This document shows positions 1 to 13,688 of a stretch of 37,505 nucleotides of DNA, in pieces. The position numbers were made by a program, and so were the translations under genes. The DNA comes from an uncultured Verrucomicrobiota bacterium (lineage in GTDB: Bacteria; Verrucomicrobiota; Verrucomicrobiia; Limisphaerales; UBA9464). The stretch lies in contig CAIMMI010000116.1 of the NCBI GenBank assembly GCA_903842505.1, forward strand, positions 1-37,505. The letters run 5' to 3'. The notes under the pieces are model-generated. The model was given only the letters and a program-made list of their open reading frames with translations, had not been told where the DNA came from and did not search any database. Position 1 is the first letter of the stretch, and each line of letters opens with the position of its first letter.

Positions 1-3000
1 GCCTGGCCCGCCGCCCTCGCGCTCGTCGCCTGGATCTTCGCCCTCACCCGCGGCCCGGGCCTCACCCGCTCGCTGGCCGTCGCCCTCGGATGGACGTTCC
101 TTGCCTGGGCTGCCCTCCGACTCCCCGCGGACACCCGCCCCTTCACGCTCGTGATCGCCGCCTTCGCCGCCATCCATCTCGTCCTGCCCGCCCTGGCCGC
201 CGCACGGCGCACCTCGAGCACGCCGCCACCGTCCAACCCGACGCCCACGCCCACCCCTCCAGACCCGACGTGCGGTCCGTCGCCCACTGCCGCCGCCGCA
301 GCCGTCCTCCTCGGCCTCGGCCTCTGGGCCTCACCCCACCGTCTGGAGGCCGCCACCACCCCCACGGCCCTCGCCGAATCCATCACCCACGACGTCCGCG
401 TCGAGGAGGGCTTCGCCACCGCCACCACCCGCATCCGCTGGAACGCCACCCGCAACCAGTCACTCCCCATCCTCTTCGATCCCGCCGTCCTCATCCGCGC
501 CAACTTCCCCACCAACGCGCTCCGCCTCATCCAAGCCCCGACCGAGTCGCGCCGCGGCCACCAACTCCTCGCCCTCACCAACGGCACGGTCGACATCGAC
601 CTGACGTTCCAGTTCCGCACCACCGTCCGCGACGGTGTCTCCGGCTTGGTCCTCCCGACTCCCCACGGTCTCGTGAACCGCGTGAACCTCACCCTCGCAG
701 ACCTCGACGTCGACGTCTTCGCCCCCGACGCCGTCTCCATCGACCGCCAGAACTCCACCAGCAACACGACCATCGTCCGCATCATCCTCGCCCCCGCGAC
801 GGATCCCTGGATCGCCCGGCGCCCCCGCTCCCGCGACCTCCAGAACGAGAAGCCCCTCTTCTACGCCGACACCACCCACCTCTTCACCCCGACCGCCGGT
901 CTCGTCGAGGGCCTGCACGTCCTCCAGATCCGCCCTGCCCAGGGCCAACTCTCCGAACTGCTCCTCGATATCCCGACCGGTGCCACCATCACCGACGTCG
1001 CCGACGCCAACCCCGCCCCGGCCCCGGCCCCAGCCGCCAACATCGACGCCAAGCAGAACCGCCCCACCCCCGCACCCAGCGTCTCGCTCTGGCGCTTCGA
1101 CCCGGACACCCGCCGTCTCCGCATCACTCTCGCCCCGGCCCAGTCCCGCCCCTTCGCGCTCGTCGTCCGTTCCCAGATCGCCACCGGCGCCCTTCCCGTC
1201 GAGCAACGCGTCGAGGTTCCCACGGTCGTCGGCGCCGCCGGACAGGTCGGCGCCGTCGGCATCGCCACCGGCAACGAGGTCCAGCTCGACAGTGTCGTCC
1301 TCGACGCCCTCTCGCCCCTCAACCTTGAAGATTACCCCGCCGCACCGGTCCAGTACCTCCAGTCCCGCATGCCCGGCCTGGCGCTCCGCCGCGCCTTCCG
1401 CCACACCGAGGCCCGCGGCTCGCTCACCCTCAAGGCTTCCGCCGTTGAACCCGACATCCGCGTCGAGACGCAGGACACGCTCTCGCTCGGCGAAGACCGC
1501 ACGGTTCTCGCCTCCAACCTCAAGATGACCGTCACCCGCGCCGGCATCTTCCGCGTCAGCTTCGCCCTCCCCGCCGGACTCGACGTCGAGTCGATCACCG
1601 GTCCCGCCCTCAGCCACTGGACCGAACTGAAGTCCACCACCGAACGGATCATCACGCTCCACCTCAAGGGACGCACCGAGGGCGAACATCCGTTCTCGAT
1701 CAACCTCGCCGGGCCCGGCACGCGGGGCCTGAAGTCCGTCGCCGTTCCGCGCCTCGTCCTCCGTGAGGCCGCCAAACAACGCGGCCAGCTGGTCATCGTT
1801 CCCGAACAGGGCCTCCGCCTTCAGGTCGGCCAACGCGACGGCGTCACCCAGCTCGATCCCGAAAAGGCCGGCATCCGGCAGAAGGGCGTGCTCGCCTTCC
1901 GTCTCCTCCAGCCGAACTGGAACCTCGCGCTCGATCTCGAACAGGTCGACGCCTGGGTCCAGGTCACCAGCCTTCAGCACGTCCAGGTCACCGAAGCCCA
2001 GCTCAAGGTCACCGCCAACCTCCGCTACCAGATCGAGAACACCGGCCTGAAGTCGCTCTTCGTCCGCGTTCCCACCAACGCCACCGGCCTCCGACTCCGC
2101 GGGGACCAGGTCGCCGACTTCGTCGCCCAGCCCAACTCCATCACCAACGGACTCCAGCTCTGGGAGGTGAAGCTCCATCGCCGGGCCATCGGCAAGTACG
2201 ACCTTCAGGCCACCTGGCAGACTCCCCTAGCCGAGGCCGCCACCAACACGGTCATCCAGGGCATCCTCGCCGCTGACGCCCGACTCCAGCGCGGCTTCGT
2301 CACCCTCCAGTCCGCCGGACGCCTCCAGCTCACCACCACCATCCTGCCCTCCGCACTCCAGCCCGCCGAGTGGCAGTCGATCCCGCGCCCGCTCCTCCAG
2401 GACCTCGACACGGCCACGGCCAACCTCACCTACCGCCTCGTCGAACCCAACTTCTCGCTCCCGCTCGGACTCGTCCGGCACGAGGCCGCCCGTCTCCTGC
2501 CCGCCCGCGTCCATCAGGTGACCCTCACTTCCGTCATCTCCGACGAAGGCGTCATGCTCACCCAGGCCCGCATCGAGATCGTTCCCGGCGACAAGCGTCT
2601 CCTCCAACTGACCCTTCCCGCCGACGCCCGATTCTGGTTCGCCTTCGTCAACCAGAACGGCGTCTACCCCTGGCGCGAACAGGACCGGATCCTCATCCCC
2701 CTCGAACAGCAGTCCCGCGCGGACAAACCGACCACCGTCGAATTCTTCTACTCGTCCCGCATCGGCGACGCCGCCTCGCGCAAGCTCGACCTTGCGCTCA
2801 ACGGACCGAAGTTCGACCTCCCCCTCGAGGACATCACCTGGCAGGTCTACCTGAACTCCAAGTGGACCCTCGAAGACTGGTCCGGTTCCCTCCAACTCCA
2901 GTCCACCGACACCGGCAGCACCGCCACTGTCGACGTCCAGTCCTACCTCCAGGGCGAGCAGGTCCAGAACCAGGCCAAGACCAAGGCTGCCGAGGAAATG

Positions 3001-3570
3001 CTCCAGATGGGCAATCGCTTCCTCGTCGAGGGCGATCCCCAGAAGGCCCGGCGCGCCTTCCAGAACGCCTTCGGCCTCAGCACCCACGACAACGCCTTCA
3101 ACGAGGACGCCCGCGTCCAGCTCCACAACCTCAAGGTCCAGCAGGCCCTCGTCGGCCTCAACATCGGTCAGGCCGCCGTCGCCGGCGAATCCGCGCCCGC
3201 CGCCGGCAACCTCCGACAACTCCGCAACCGCTCCGAGGCCAACTACACCCAGCAGGAAGCCAAGGAACTCTTTGCCCTCAACGGTGCCGCCGACAACGCC
3301 ACCCTCGAGAAGCTCGCCGAGCGCATCATCGAGCAGCAGGACGCCGCGCTCCCCTCCCCCACCGCCATCCGCGCCTCCATCCCCCAGCAAGGCCGCATGC
3401 TCACCTTCAAGCGATCCGTCCAGGTCGAGACCTGGACCGACCTCAACCTCCGCCTCGCTGCCCGCTCCACCAACGCCCCCAACCGCGTCGGCCGCTTCGC
3501 CGCCTTCGCTGCCCTCGGACTGGTCCTCACCGCCCTCGTCCGCTTCACCCGCCCCCGCGCCAAGGTGTAG
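1..3570 (+). CDS. Large membrane-anchored protein, 5' end outside window
   Basis: The frame is open from base 1 to the TAG at 3568-3570, so the start lies upstream; the GTG at 151 falls inside a hydrophobic stretch and is not a credible start. The first ~70 visible residues form two or three membrane segments, a Pro/Thr-rich linker follows, and another hydrophobic stretch ends near codon 117 (HRLEA). The next ~900 residues are a beta-rich, presumably extracytoplasmic region. Near 2980-3180 a helical stretch resembles a TPR pair (AEEMLQMGNRFLVEGD, then KARRAFQNAFGLS). The protein ends with a membrane helix and a basic tail (RFTRPRAKV). I do not recognise a named family. Large proteins of this shape occur in Verrucomicrobiota and Planctomycetota, where function is unknown. 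A role in envelope assembly is only a guess. Coding is certain from length and codon bias. Confidence 0.85.
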   Translation, partial: AWPAALALVAWIFALTRGPGLTRSLAVALGWTFLAWAALRLPADTRPFTLVIAAFAAIHLVLPALAAARRTSSTPPPSNPTPTPTPPDPTCGPSPTAAAAAVLLGLGLWASPHRLEAATTPTALAESITHDVRVEEGFATATTRIRWNATRNQSLPILFDPAVLIRANFPTNALRLIQAPTESRRGHQLLALTNGTVDIDLTFQFRTTVRDGVSGLVLPTPHGLVNRVNLTLADLDVDVFAPDAVSIDRQNSTSNTTIVRIILAPATDPWIARRPRSRDLQNEKPLFYADTTHLFTPTAGLVEGLHVLQIRPAQGQLSELLLDIPTGATITDVADANPAPAPAPAANIDAKQNRPTPAPSVSLWRFDPDTRRLRITLAPAQSRPFALVVRSQIATGALPVEQRVEVPTVVGAAGQVGAVGIATGNEVQLDSVVLDALSPLNLEDYPAAPVQYLQSRMPGLALRRAFRHTEARGSLTLKASAVEPDIRVETQDTLSLGEDRTVLASNLKMTVTRAGIFRVSFALPAGLDVESITGPALSHWTELKSTTERIITLHLKGRTEGEHPFSINLAGPGTRGLKSVAVPRLVLREAAKQRGQLVIVPEQGLRLQVGQRDGVTQLDPEKAGIRQKGVLAFRLLQPNWNLALDLEQVDAWVQVTSLQHVQVTEAQLKVTANLRYQIENTGLKSLFVRVPTNATGLRLRGDQVADFVAQPNSITNGLQLWEVKLHRRAIGKYDLQATWQTPLAEAATNTVIQGILAADARLQRGFVTLQSAGRLQLTTTILPSALQPAEWQSIPRPLLQDLDTATANLTYRLVEPNFSLPLGLVRHEAARLLPARVHQVTLTSVISDEGVMLTQARIEIVPGDKRLLQLTLPADARFWFAFVNQNGVYPWREQDRILIPLEQQSRADKPTTVEFFYSSRIGDAASRKLDLALNGPKFDLPLEDITWQVYLNSKWTLEDWSGSLQLQSTDTGSTATVDVQSYLQGEQVQNQAKTKAAEEMLQMGNRFLVEGDPQKARRAFQNAFGLSTHDNAFNEDARVQLHNLKVQQALVGLNIGQAAVAGESAPAAGNLRQLRNRSEANYTQQEAKELFALNGAADNATLEKLAERIIEQQDAALPSPTAIRASIPQQGRMLTFKRSVQVETWTDLNLRLAARSTNAPNRVGRFAAFAALGLVLTALVRFTRPRAKV

Positions 3571-3572
3571 GC

Positions 3573-3696
3573 CCGGGTGCCCTCACCCGGCGGTGCTTCT
3601 CTGTAGGCCGCGTGCCCCCACGCGGCGTTGCCCCTCTCTACGCCGGGTGCCCTCACCCGGCGTTTCCTCTCTGTAGGCCCGGGTGCCCTCACCCGG
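3573..3696. repeat. Array of four evenly spaced hairpins
   Basis: Four short perfect palindromes sit directly after the stop codon at 3570: 3573-3590 (7-bp stem), 3607-3626 (8-bp stem), 3641-3662 (9-bp stem) and 3679-3696 (7-bp stem). All have a four-base loop, CCCT or CCCC. Their centres are 35, 35 and 36 bp apart and the spacers share a CTCTCTGTAGGC-like sequence. The first could help terminate transcription of the upstream gene, but the regular phasing suggests a repeat family rather than a simple terminator. Confidence 0.8.
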
Positions 3697-3745
3697 CGAT
3701 CCCAATCCCCAACGGGGCGAACGGTGACCACACGCACCCTGTTCC

Positions 3746-3826
3746 CTGTGCCCTTTCAGGGCACAGAGGAGTTGTGTGGCGTGGCCCCCGGGGTTCCACC
3801 CCGGGCTTTCAACGGTTGCCCCGTTG
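3746..3826. repeat. Further intergenic hairpins
   Basis: Three more stem-loops follow the array: 3746-3766 (9-bp perfect stem, loop TTC), 3787-3805 (8-bp perfect stem, loop TCC) and about 3810-3826 (CAACGG/CCGTTG). The sequences differ from one another, but the density of hairpins is well above that of the coding regions. With the array before them and the direct repeats after them, they fill the gene-free interval 3571-4138, in which I see no open frame worth calling. Confidence 0.6.
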
Positions 3827-3854
3827 GGGAACGAGCGCAGACGCTTCCCCACCT

Positions 3855-4120
3855 CGCAGCCCCAATCCTCTTTCGGCACCACGCCCCAGCCCTTTACCGA
3901 TAAGGGCCGAAAGATTCGGACACGCCCAAACGGCACTCTCCCCGCCGCCCCTTTTTTCGCCCGCTTTCGTTTCTTTCGGCCACCCCAGCTCGCAGCCCCA
4001 AAACCCTTTCGGCCTCACGCCACCGCCCTTTGCCGAAAAGAACGAAAGAAGCCAAAAGATCCGGACCGCCCCCTCTTCTTCTCCCTCTTTCGTTTCTTGT
4101 GGCCATCCAATCTCCCCAGC
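3855..4120. repeat. Two tandem ~135-bp repeat units (left of TA module)
   Basis: Unit 1 (3855-3990) and unit 2 (3991 to about 4118) both begin CGCAGCCCC, continue through a CTTTCGGC motif and end in TTTCGTTTCTT followed by a GGCC-rich stretch. Within the units, TTTCGTTTCTTTCGGC (about 3965) and GCCGAAAAGAACGAAAG (about 4033) are near-perfect inverted copies, so the array can fold. A related copy lies on the other side of the toxin-antitoxin genes at about 4853-4950. Confidence 0.65.
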
Positions 4121-4138
4121 ACCTCCGCGCCCGGGAGG

Positions 4139-4570
4139 CTACGCTCGTCTGTGACGTGCAGGGCTGCCCCGCATCGAACAGGATTCCAGGTATCGGGTGT
4201 GCAGCACGTCGGCCAACTGGCGCTTGTCGAGCCGACGGAGTGCCACATCGATCATCGCCCGTTCCAAGGCCTCGGGTGCCGATGCAATGGAAACTCCATT
4301 GATTTCCAAGAAGACAAGAGCTGCAGCAGCGGCAACCCGCTTGTTGCCGTCGACGAACGCCTGAGCCTCGGCGAGGTGGAAGGCGTAAGCGGCCGCGATA
4401 TCGAACAGATCGCCACCCACATACCAGAAGGCGTTCCGTGCGGAAGCGAGGGCGGAATCCACAAGCCCAGGCTCCCGTACTCCCGCCTGCCCGCCGTGTT
4501 CCGCCAGGGCACGGTCGTGGAGTCGATTTACCTGCGCCAGGGTCAGGAATCTTGGTCCGTCCGTCGTCAC
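4139..4570 (-). CDS. doc: Doc-type (Fic fold) toxin of a toxin-antitoxin pair
   Basis: A 143-residue protein, the usual size for death-on-curing toxins, which in known members inhibit translation by phosphorylating EF-Tu. The family loop is clear at residues 70-79 (QAFVDGNKRV) after the helix AYAFHL, followed by the ALVFLEINGV helix. The usual His two residues before the Phe (HxFxDGNKR) is Gln70 here, read from codon CAG. The start is GTG at 4570, sharing the four bases GTGA with the antitoxin stop, so the two genes are translationally coupled. The last ~18 codons are Arg/Ser-rich and run close to the repeat array, so the C terminus may have been remodelled. Family assignment is firm; activity is uncertain because of Gln70. 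Confidence 0.88.
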   Translation of the reverse strand: MTTDGPRFLTLAQVNRLHDRALAEHGGQAGVREPGLVDSALASARNAFWYVGGDLFDIAAAYAFHLAEAQAFVDGNKRVAAAAALVFLEINGVSIASAPEALERAMIDVALRRLDKRQLADVLHTRYLESCSMRGSPARHRRA

Positions 4571-4791
4571 TGCGCGAGGCGTTGGAGCAGTTCGCGATGT
4601 TCCGTGAACACACGATCCGCAGCCGATGCGAATTCCTCCTCGGAAGCTTCCCGCACCACATGGTTGGAATCAGAGGGCGCGGACGAAGCACGGTTCAACT
4701 CCGCAGTACGGTTCGTCACCGCGGTCAAGACCCGGGCGAGGTCAGCAGCCGGCAGACGCCGGATTTCATCGATGACTTCGGCAACACTCAT
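4567..4791 (-). CDS. Probable antitoxin of the Doc pair
   Basis: A 74-residue acidic and helical protein (MSVAEVIDEIRRLPAADLAR at the N terminus) placed immediately upstream of the Doc toxin and overlapping its start by four bases. Position and size fit a Phd-like partner, which in this family binds the toxin through its C terminus and represses the operon through its N terminus. I chose the ATG at 4791. The frame stays open to 4932, but the extra residues are Lys/Arg-rich and are encoded by the repeat unit, so they are unlikely to be translated. Sequence alone does not place it in a named antitoxin family; the call rests on context. Confidence 0.7.
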   Translation of the reverse strand: MSVAEVIDEIRRLPAADLARVLTAVTNRTAELNRASSAPSDSNHVVREASEEEFASAADRVFTEHRELLQRLAQ

Positions 4792-4852
4792 TTCATAAGC
4801 AAACTCACGCAGCCCAAGCGCACCGTCAATCCCCAGCTCCAGACGTGGGCCC

Positions 4853-4950
4853 CACCCAAACGCCACCCTCCACACCGCCCCCTTTTTCGCCCTCTTTCGT
4901 TTCTTTCGGCCACCCCAGCTCGCAGCCCCCAATCCTCTTTCGGCCTCGCG
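4853..4950. repeat. Direct-repeat copy right of the TA module
   Basis: This stretch repeats the junction of the units found at 3855-4120. Positions 4894-4929 are identical over 36 bases to 3964-3999, and similarity extends on both sides (ACCCAAACG..., then ...CTTTCGGCCTC). The two identical cores are 930 bp apart, same orientation, with both toxin-antitoxin genes between them. Confidence 0.8.
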
Positions 4951-4954
4951 CGCC

Positions 4955-5161
4955 TCACCGGGTCTGGAATGCGGTGGACTTCATGACCGCATGGACCAAC
5001 GCGTGCACCCGGTACTCACCCCGCTTCAACACCTCGGCCGCGCCCTCGATGCTCCGAGGGTCCGACTGACCTTCCCGTTGTCCCGGAGCAGCGCGGCAAA
5101 GAACGCCTTGGGCTCCTCGGCCTTGCTCCGTTTCTTTCGACCGGATGCCGCCGCCGAACAC
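4955..5161 (-). pseudogene. Possible C-terminal fragment of a DUF1585/DUF1592-type protein
   Basis: The last ~30 codons (LKRGEYRVHALVHAVMKS, then TAFQTR and stop) resemble the C-terminal end of the large DUF1592/DUF1585 cytochrome-linked proteins common in Planctomycetota and Verrucomicrobiota, which typically close with a YRF..LV..IV.S..F..R pattern. Upstream codons in this frame look non-coding. A neighbouring frame (RKKRSKAEEPKAFFAALLRDN) reads better, suggesting a frameshift. Only ~200 bp separate it from the amt stop, so any gene here is a remnant. The resemblance is from memory and short, so the family name is tentative. Confidence 0.3.
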
Positions 5162-5195
5162 CGCTGAAACCAGCGCCCGGCGGCGACCCCATGCA

Positions 5196-6596
5196 TCAGA
5201 GCGTGTACCCCTCCTCGCCGTGCTCCGCGAGGTCGAGTCCCTGGTCCTCAGTCTCCTCGGGCACCCGGCACCCGATGGTCTTGTCGATGACGAAGTACAG
5301 CACCACGGTCACAACGACGGACAGCAGCAGGATCAAGCCGCCTGCCTTCAACTGCTCGATCCACAGCCCGCCACCCACCAGTGCCTTGATCCGCGGGGCG
5401 TCGAGGTTCGGGTTCACCTCCGAGGTCGCGAGGATTCCCGCCATCACCGTTCCCAGCGTCCCACCCACGGCGTGGACACCAAACGTGTCCAGCGAGTCGT
5501 CGTATCCGAACCAACCCTTGAGCTTCGCGCAGGCCACATAGGTCGAGATCCCCGCCACCAACCCGATCACCACCGCGCCGGTCGGCGTTACGAACCCGGA
5601 CGCCGGCGTGATGGTCGCCAACCCGGCAACCGCCCCGGAACACATACCCAGGATCGAAGGCTTTCCCCGCAGGAACCATTCAATCAACGCCCACACGCAC
5701 AGGCCCACCCCCGCACTCAGCGTGGTGGCCACAAACGCATTCGAAGAAACAACGTCCGCCGCCACCGCAGAACCCGCGTTGAACCCATACCAACCGAACC
5801 AGAGCATCCCCGTGCCCACCATGCAGAGCACCATGTTGTGCGGCACGATCGGCTCCCGGCCGTATCCCCTCCGCGGCCCAAGCAAAAGACACAGCACCAG
5901 CGCGCTCCATCCCGACGTCATGTGCACCACGATCCCACCCGCGAAATCCACGGCCTTGATCTTCGCACCGTCGTTCCAGAGCCCGTTCATCCACCCATCT
6001 GCACCCCACAGCATGTGCGCCGACGGAAAATACACGACGAACATCCAGACCGTGCAGAACACCATCAGGGCCTTGTACCGCATCCGCTCCGCAATCGCCC
6101 CGACGATCAATCCGGGCGTGATGATGGCGAACATCAATTGGTACATCGCGTAGATGTTGTGGGAAACCCAGGCGCCGTAGTCCGCATTCGGTGCAGCCGT
6201 CACCCCCTTCAGGAAACTCCACCCCAACCCGCCCAGGAACGGAGACCCCTTGCTGAAGCTCAACGAATACCCGCATGCCCACCAAATCACCGTGACGATC
6301 CCCGCCAACCCGAGGCATTGCGCCAGCACGGACAGGACGTTCTTCCGCCGAACCAATCCGCCATAGAACAGCGAAAGACCCGGCAAGGTCATGAACAGCA
6401 CCAACCCGGCACTCATCATCATCCAACCGTTGTGCCCCGGCCCCGGATTGCCCGCCAGGCTCGTCGCCGGCGCCCCGTTCTTGAAGTACGCCTCCAGATC
6501 CGCCAACCGCTGCTCGACCGTCGGATCCGCCGCCCGCAAACCCGTCAGGCCGCCCAGCAGACCCATCATCAACACCCAAAACAGGAACTTTTTCAT
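5196..6596 (-). CDS. amtB: Ammonium transporter AmtB
   Basis: A 466-residue Amt/Mep/Rh channel that carries ammonium/ammonia across the inner membrane. An N-terminal signal peptide (MKKFLFWVLMMGLLGGLTG, ending near RAA) is followed by a short periplasmic linker and the conserved membrane core: GLSLFYGGLVRRKNVLS in helix 1, ADGWMNGLWNDGAKIKAVDF, MLWFGWYGFNAGSA, and in the second half DDSLDTFGVHAVGGTLGT with the second pore histidine. The cytoplasmic C tail ends in acidic residues. It lies 33 bp downstream of the PII gene on the same strand, the standard glnK-amtB arrangement, in which PII plugs the channel when nitrogen is plentiful. No truncation is seen. Confidence 0.96.
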   Translation of the reverse strand: MKKFLFWVLMMGLLGGLTGLRAADPTVEQRLADLEAYFKNGAPATSLAGNPGPGHNGWMMMSAGLVLFMTLPGLSLFYGGLVRRKNVLSVLAQCLGLAGIVTVIWWACGYSLSFSKGSPFLGGLGWSFLKGVTAAPNADYGAWVSHNIYAMYQLMFAIITPGLIVGAIAERMRYKALMVFCTVWMFVVYFPSAHMLWGADGWMNGLWNDGAKIKAVDFAGGIVVHMTSGWSALVLCLLLGPRRGYGREPIVPHNMVLCMVGTGMLWFGWYGFNAGSAVAADVVSSNAFVATTLSAGVGLCVWALIEWFLRGKPSILGMCSGAVAGLATITPASGFVTPTGAVVIGLVAGISTYVACAKLKGWFGYDDSLDTFGVHAVGGTLGTVMAGILATSEVNPNLDAPRIKALVGGGLWIEQLKAGGLILLLSVVVTVVLYFVIDKTIGCRVPEETEDQGLDLAEHGEEGYTL

Positions 6597-12561: not shown

Positions 12562-13688
12562 GCAATGGGGTCAGTCCCGTATTATTTATATTTCCCCCGG
12601 ATTCCTTCCACGAACTCCTTCAGTTCCCCACGTTCCTCGGCCAGTCGCCAAAACCGCCGTACGCCCTGCGCCAGGGAACCGTACTGGACCCCAGGCATCT
12701 TCCCGGCCACTTCCACCAGGCGCCACCCCAGATGCCTGGTCGCCACCGCCACCACCCCGTCCCGGCCCCAATCCCCATGTCCTTCACACATCTCCTGCCA
12801 GGATCGGCCTCGCAGGGATTCCGCCGTCGACACGATCTCCGGCCAGTCGGGCCTGACACGCCGGGCCGCTGCCACCACCACCCGCCGCGCCTTCTCCGGA
12901 TCCTTCGCCGCTTTCCGGATCAGCCCTTCCGCTTCCCGGGTTTCCCCCAGCACGACCCCTCCCACCAATCCCTCCCACGGGTTGTCCAATCGCCCCTGCC
13001 GGATGGGTGCCTCCGTGTAGGCAACCAGTGCAGCCCGCCTCTGCCGAGCCCGGCTCCCGTCGTTCTCGCCGAGCAACCGTTCCAGATTCAGCCAACCCGG
13101 TGCCGGCTCCAGACCGGCGTACACCCGCCAGGAACTCCAACCGTACTCCCTCAGCGCCGTCACCCGTCGAGCGACCAACTCCGCTCCGGGGTCCGGACAC
13201 CCCATGACACGCGCCCGTCGTTGATCTTCCTTGGACAACCCCAGTCCTTTGATCCGCACCGGATTCAGGTGAAGGTACCGGCCGACTTCCTCCAACCGCC
13301 CCTCATCCTGGATCAGTGCCGACTTGAATCGTCCCTGAAAGACGTGGCCCCTTCTTCGATGCGCCCAGTTGAACCGAACGGAATAGCTGGTCTGCAGCCA
13401 CCGAAGGGTCTCGCTGACGTCCGTCCGACGACAACGCAACAGCAGATGGTAGTGATTGTCCATCAGCACGAACGCATGCACCTCGGCGCCGAACCGGTCC
13501 GGCAGTTCCGACACCAACCCGAGGAACGCCCGGCGATCGTCGTCCCGGCGGAAGAGGGTCTCCCCGCCATTCCCACGGCTCATCACGTGATACCAACCAT
13601 CAACAACATGGATGCGAAGCGGTCGTGCCATCCGGCAAGGCTGCGTCTCAACGGCCAATTGTCAATAGTACGGGACTGACCCCATTGC
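12562..13688 (-). mobile_element. RAYT element bounded by perfect 20-bp inverted repeats
   Basis: Positions 12562-12581 and the reverse complement of 13669-13688 are identical over 20 bases (core GGGGTCAGTCCCGTA). The left copy abuts the stop codon of the transposase and the right copy lies 37 bp upstream of its start, so the pair frames the gene exactly. At the right end the 16 bases 13681-13696 are duplicated in tandem at 13697-13712. A third end copy is at 12418-12440. This matches the known association of RAYT proteins with REP-like palindromic ends. No target duplication is evident. Confidence 0.85.
12582..13631 (-). CDS. REP-associated tyrosine transposase (RAYT, Y1/HUH)
   Basis: A 349-residue single-strand DNA transposase/nuclease of the Y1_Tnp superfamily. 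The start ATG at 13631 gives the classic opening MARPLRIHVVDGWYHVMSRG. The metal-binding HUH pair is His60-Tyr61-His62 in MDNHYHLLL, and Tyr83 (TSYSVRFN) is the likely nucleophile, followed by RRGHVFQGRFKS and YLHLNPVR. The long C-terminal region (about 180-349) ends in a DnaA-like helical segment seen in larger RAYTs. All catalytic residues look intact, so it may be active. A TTG start nine codons upstream is less likely. Confidence 0.95.
   Translation of the reverse strand: MARPLRIHVVDGWYHVMSRGNGGETLFRRDDDRRAFLGLVSELPDRFGAEVHAFVLMDNHYHLLLRCRRTDVSETLRWLQTSYSVRFNWAHRRRGHVFQGRFKSALIQDEGRLEEVGRYLHLNPVRIKGLGLSKEDQRRARVMGCPDPGAELVARRVTALREYGWSSWRVYAGLEPAPGWLNLERLLGENDGSRARQRRAALVAYTEAPIRQGRLDNPWEGLVGGVVLGETREAEGLIRKAAKDPEKARRVVVAAARRVRPDWPEIVSTAESLRGRSWQEMCEGHGDWGRDGVVAVATRHLGWRLVEVAGKMPGVQYGSLAQGVRRFWRLAEERGELKEFVEGIRGKYK

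Follow-up and report, generated by a model that had tools for sequence, protein, structure and literature searches.

REPINs are extragenic elements in which an inverted pair of arms and a spacer form a predicted hairpin. In the cited sections of the paper describing them, clusters with a regular order consist of tandemly repeated units that take in flanking sequence, solitary arms occur as remnants and compensatory changes are common (PMC3116915). Another group of small intergenic palindromic repeats, the GTAG/CGTC-tagged REPs and MITEs, is known in Verrucomicrobia and Planctomycetes, and the same cited portion gives bacterial MITEs as 70-300 bp long with terminal inverted repeats of 15-30 bp (PMC3733652). 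At folA-apaH in E. coli, a toxin-antitoxin (TA) pair and REP sequences are alternative contents of the locus, according to the relevant part of a 2020 review that calls the movement and integration of TA modules unelucidated (PMC7167474). Among the papers that literature searches listed, no title or abstract opening described the element reported here or TA pairs in repeat arrays of Verrucomicrobia. Integron cassette arrays, which have attC sites and an integron integrase, are another setting in which TA pairs occur.

We analysed a window of 37,505 nucleotides, one whole contig from the genome of an uncultured Verrucomicrobiota bacterium (5.2 Mb in 362 contigs). Between a 1139-aa gene and an ammonium transporter gene (amt), the window holds a TA pair surrounded by a repeat array. 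The 36-bp core of this array represents one of the two arms of a hairpin element, so the whole is best read as REPIN-like elements clustered in tandem, with the pair lodged among them. The features are as follows.

3847 to 3982, plus strand: repeat unit A, 136 bp; left arm degenerate, right arm (3965-3982) intact
3964 to 3999, plus strand: left 36-bp core, by exact match
3983 to 4118, plus strand: repeat unit B, 136 bp, in tandem with A, by repeat comparison
4030 to 4105, plus strand: complete two-armed hairpin element within unit B, 76 bp, by arm search, element extraction and folding
4139 to 4570, minus strand: Doc-family toxin, 143 aa, with glutamine replacing the motif histidine (PF02661, TIGR01550)
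4567 to 4791, minus strand: likely antitoxin of 74 aa and no known family, its gene sharing 4 bp with that of the toxin, by open reading frame (ORF) and position
4848 to 4951, plus strand: right repeat, a copy of the A/B junction without the left arm, by repeat comparison
4894 to 4929, plus strand: right 36-bp core, by exact match

The first-pass annotation had described identical 36-bp cores on both sides of the TA genes, two tandem units of about 135 bp on the left, and both genes wholly between the cores; direct comparison and the ORF coordinates (4139-4791) bore this out. The cores match over exactly 36 bp, with the next base differing on either side, and the left units, which begin at 3847 and 3983, are spaced by 136 and are 83% identical over 58 nt. 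No exact direct repeat in 3571-5195 is longer than this 36-bp match, and in 200 dinucleotide shuffles of that interval the longest repeat had a mean of 11.0 and a maximum of 14. It lies within a wider match of 97 nt at 89.7% identity between the flanks (3925-4020 and 4855-4951). Elsewhere in the genome the left array has just two matches, of 38 nt each; since the match between the flanks far exceeds any other genomic copy, both flanks derive from one local array. An inverted arm lies at 4030-4047 and a third arm copy, absent from the first-pass annotation, at 4088-4105, and the whole window contains four arm matches at up to three mismatches, compared with 0.07 expected. The TA segment lies where the pattern of the array would place the first half of another unit.

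The element to which the core belongs is a two-armed hairpin of 62-128 bp, TGGCCGAAAGAAACGAAAG...CTTTCGTTTCTTTCGGCCA. From 53 stretches we extracted 27 distinct two-armed elements, including unit B and a copy on contig C337, using 18-nt arms with up to three mismatches, a procedure that produces terminal inverted repeats of 15-30 bp by construction. Nearly all 27 pair end to end in the predicted hairpin fold. Arm pairs in the opposite order occurred three times; one of these falls between units A and B of the window, and another falls between the two members of a further tandem pair of elements, in L283. Within elements the arms do not covary (20.70 of 24, compared with 20.91 for shuffled pairs; 4,552 of 5,000 shuffles reached the observed value). 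The elements look conserved as DNA sequence, a point weakened by their having been selected on arm similarity.

A function of the hairpin as RNA was considered and rejected on the lack of arm covariation, the lack of Rfam support and the occurrence of terminator-like sites at chance frequency. At the gathering score, Rfam matched nothing in the window but a tRNA elsewhere in it, and nothing in 11 foreign stretches; matches in 3560-5210 were all below threshold.

The element is dispersed. At up to two mismatches, the 18-nt arm was found at 13 sites in this genome, compared with 2 for a reversed control; three sites are in the window and ten are spread over seven other contigs. On contig C298, two direct copies (58 nt, 88%) bracket an AAA_14/DUF4143 ATPase gene. 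On C337, an inverted arm pair lies between xseA-like and thioredoxin-like genes. A further copy adjoins a PIN toxin gene, and the remaining copies adjoin ordinary-looking genes (names of the C337 genes and of these last read from sequence). Within the order, 6 of 58 genomes contained the arm at up to one mismatch, and this genome accounted for 7 of the 15 sites. An exact 19-nt search of a species-genome collection returned 25 stretches, 15 from Verrucomicrobia, 8 from Planctomycetes and 2 others, the last of which look like chance matches in coding DNA. In eight of the genomes behind these stretches, a search at up to two mismatches gave arm-site counts of 31, 22, 6, 6, 20, 10, 4 and 2 (reversed controls, 0-3), and in the richest, G444, 28 of the 31 sites form 14 minus-then-plus pairs 50-202 bp apart. 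The genes flanking the 25 foreign stretches, as read from crude gene calls, are mostly ordinary-looking; a PDDEXK_3 gene beside the element in L172 is an exception.

Set against the described systems, the window array resembles REPIN clusters in its inverted arm pairs with a spacer, predicted hairpin and extragenic position, and in being tandem with flanking sequence and single arms, as far as the cited sections of PMC3116915 describe them. It differs from REPINs in its low copy number, in the lack of arm covariation and in the lack of an adjacent RAYT gene: of the two RAYT genes in this genome, neither has an arm beside it at up to two mismatches, and the 25 foreign stretches gave no RAYT match. 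With the tagged REPs and MITEs of PMC3733652 it shares small size, palindromic form, intergenic position and occurrence in Verrucomicrobia and Planctomycetes, to the extent covered by the cited portion. Unlike these, within 12 nt outside the arms GTAG/CTAC occurred in 0 of 27 elements and CGTC/GACG in 1 of 27, and target-site duplications of 4-9 bp were found in none of the 27, with those of 2-3 bp at chance. We therefore call the elements REPIN-like only: they have the structure described for REPINs and lack the RAYT link and the tags. As at folA-apaH, TA genes and REP-type repeats are found in one intergenic region; there they are alternative contents in the account cited (PMC7167474), whereas here the pair lies inside the repeat array.

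Separately, one of the two RAYT-type transposase genes is in the window (12582-13658, minus strand, PF01797; segment 12294-13860). It carries inverted repeats of its own (GGGGTCAGTCCCGTA), and direct repeats of another family (97 nt, 78%) lie on both sides of it.

The toxin matches Doc models above their cut-offs (PF02661, E = 2.2e-12, 48.1 bits against a curated 24; TIGR01550, E = 2.6e-14, 53.4 bits against 38.65). Its motif, QAFVDGNKR, departs from the catalytic-histidine pattern HxFx[D/N][G/A]NKR, with glutamine aligned to His66 of P1 Doc; glutamine is at this position in 14 of 37 homologues. P1 Doc H66Y is called non-toxic in the cited part of PMC2686095, and the relevant section of PMC4454073 already describes a glutamine clade of Doc, possibly not catalytically dead. 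This clade, D2, consists of single-domain Doc proteins with the motif Qx[F/Y]x[D/E][G/V]NKR, which the window toxin shares; likened to it by motif and domain layout rather than by a tree, the histidine-to-glutamine variant appears to be of this already published kind. In L056 and L057 (G004:C293 and G026:C1), the glutamine-type Doc ORFs are about 200 aa longer than usual, with a C-terminal extension.

The ORF at 4567-4791 is likely the antitoxin, judging from its position and its resemblance to genes beside related Docs, to two of which its C terminus has weak direct matches. Against Pfam at E≤0.001 it matched no family, and in NCBIfam it matched only a weak, unrelated model far under its cut-off. 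Plasmids and phages carry Doc relatives (1,591 and 57 records, respectively, all below 60% identity), and a related antitoxin had no match among plasmids. A tie of glutamine-type Doc to one antitoxin type and an upstream histidine was apparent by eye in relatives, with one intermediate (L060), and was rejected as a rule: among nine glutamine-type loci on viral contigs, from a search pattern that favoured glutamine, the antitoxin was AbrB-like in four and the histidine was absent in six.

To the left of the array is the 1139-aa gene (151-3570, plus strand, no family match), and to the right is amt (5196-6596, minus strand). We compared the amt stretches of 18 relatives, some of which stop 1-2 kb past amt; in 0 of the 18 was the 1139-aa gene beside amt, and Doc was likewise found in none. 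In G006, the nearest species compared, the 1139-aa gene (94%) and amt (91%) are on separate contigs, so the site is a synteny break; the array was absent beside either gene within the stretches read, and one distant Doc relative is on a third contig. The first-pass annotation had proposed looking in related genomes for sites with the array and without the TA genes, and neither amt nor the 1139-aa gene led to a clean empty site; no allele with a complete array lacking the pair was found among the 18 amt stretches and the relatives of the 1139-aa gene. By this comparison, the TA pair was likely gained in this lineage. Third-position GC is 0.68 for the toxin and 0.64 for the antitoxin, compared with 0.90 and 0.84 for the neighbours, although crude gene calls across the window span 0.61-0.90, a range that covers the pair's values. 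At 3566-3698, 3' of the 1139-aa gene, there is also a separate tandem array of a 35-bp palindrome (CCGGGTGCCCTCACCCGG), and similar sequence lies 3' of the gene's orthologue in G006.

We examined in three ways whether repeats are linked to TA or other accessory genes, scoring a gene as bracketed if its two flanks shared a direct or inverted match at E<1e-4 (1,500-bp flanks in relatives and 1,200-bp flanks in this genome). In relatives, 5 of 28 Doc, 4 of 24 PIN and 2 of 28 amt loci were bracketed, as was 1 of 102 random intervals from 17 amt stretches, after loci with short flanks had been dropped (6 of 30 PIN and 1 of 29 amt). TA loci together (9/52) differed from random intervals (P = 0.0003) but not significantly from amt (P = 0.18). 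The accessory set of this genome comprised 7 of its 12 PIN genes, 8 of its 10 DUF4143 genes, both RAYT genes and its one Doc; 8 of these 18 genes were bracketed, or 6 of 16 once the two cases to which the repeats themselves had led, the window pair and C298, were set aside. Random intervals in the same genome gave 21/271, 10/250 and 7/236 (3-8%). The 6 of 16 exceeded the proportion for ordinary genes from crude gene calls (6/61, P = 0.014) but not that for ordinary genes with at least 100 bp of spacer on both sides (3/13, P = 0.34), the comparison that we take as the fair one, though small. With this control of 13 genes, the excess seems to follow isolation in spacer DNA rather than TA identity. 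Because copies of the element adjoin ordinary genes too, a TA-specific repeat link is not established. The outcome that the first-pass annotation had named as speaking against its reading, repeats widespread between ordinary genes and unlinked to TA presence, is largely what was found, with the reservation that the decisive matched control comprises just 13 genes.

Several other loci showed repeats of their own. A 30-nt direct repeat (87%) of unrelated sequence tightly brackets the Doc pair at L117 4745-5486 (G021:C6). At L083 371-2012 (G055:C12), Doc has a tRNA-Thr gene on one side and, on the other, 37 nt that repeat part of that gene exactly, an arrangement that resembles the trace left by tRNA-targeted integration, and at L119 3939-5316 (G007:C138) it lies between 339-nt copies (86%) of a coding stretch read as hsdM-like. 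By eye, several bracketed TA loci (L072, L142 and L144) resemble coding duplications. The Doc pair at L108 99-2779 (G049:C202), which has an AbrB-like antitoxin, has further tandem repeat copies nearby, unrelated in sequence to the window element, and at L198 423-1935 (G000:C229) the left repeat beside a DUF4143 ATPase gene abuts the ORF called for that gene.

Taken together, we consider it fairly likely that the TA pair lodged in a pre-existing REPIN-like tandem cluster in tolerant spacer DNA, with no need for the repeats to have moved it. Against this reading stand the enrichment of bracketing around accessory genes relative to the 61 ordinary genes and its strength relative to random intervals. 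That enrichment would fit a rival in which the repeats act as portable homology: the pair would have come on DNA with a repeat copy, exchange with a repeat in the chromosome would have left a direct copy on each side, and the repeats would thereby capture and release accessory genes. Both copies here are indeed in direct orientation, direct copies of the same element bracket the ATPase gene on C298, and other repeats bracket other accessory genes (129 nt at 89% in L198; 157 nt at 85%, also direct, in L108). However, the enrichment was not significant against gap-matched genes, TA loci in relatives did not differ significantly from amt, the C298 case was located via the repeat itself, and the flanks do not amount to a pair of full copies, since the right one has no left arm; we regard such capture as unlikely. 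Extended to short two-armed repeats common to Verrucomicrobia and Planctomycetes as portable recombination sites, through which small accessory modules such as the Doc pair and the C298 ATPase gene would pass in and out of intergenic sites like cassettes, carrying no recombinase themselves, the idea attracts little of our confidence.

The flanking repeats might instead have arrived independently on each side of an older TA pair, as the dispersal of the element in this genome would allow. This is already disfavoured, and we think it quite improbable: the 97 nt shared by the flanks include sequence outside the element, whereas other copies share 38 nt. The left arm of unit B (4032-4057) and the right arm at 4885-4910 are inverted relative to each other (81% complementarity over 26 nt, with 827 nt between them), as if the pair were cargo between the outer arms of one enlarged element that moved as a composite. 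Unit B is already a complete short element by itself, however, such a composite was detected nowhere else in this genome, and the 27 elements gave the target-site result above, which makes cargo of this kind very doubtful.

Under the preferred reading, in which the pair settled into an existing cluster, two-armed elements, short and dispersed across many intergenic sites, would have been duplicated in tandem into 136-bp units. A mobile Doc-type TA pair would then have settled in the cluster between the 1139-aa gene and amt, taking the place of one unit's front half, with array sequence staying on both sides. Repeat-rich spacers would tolerate insertions, which would suffice for the bracketing with no special mechanism. 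The first-pass annotation had suggested that the module inserted within a repeat array or moved with it. The 97-nt, 90% match of the flanks and the replacement of half a unit favour insertion, and the absence of the array beside the neighbours in the G006 stretches read and the position of most copies beside ordinary-looking genes leave joint movement without support. The data show the array, the two-armed element, the identity of the toxin and copies next to ordinary genes. As no allele with a complete array and without the pair was found, we infer that the pair entered an array already in place, that it came by transfer and that recombination may delete it. Unequal recombination between the 36-bp cores would remove a 930-bp segment that carries both genes, and loss of the TA pair in this way is plausible. 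Here the hairpin repeats are probably just tolerant spacer DNA, and a TA pair inside a tandem hairpin cluster offers a concrete place for testing repeats as landing or exit sites.
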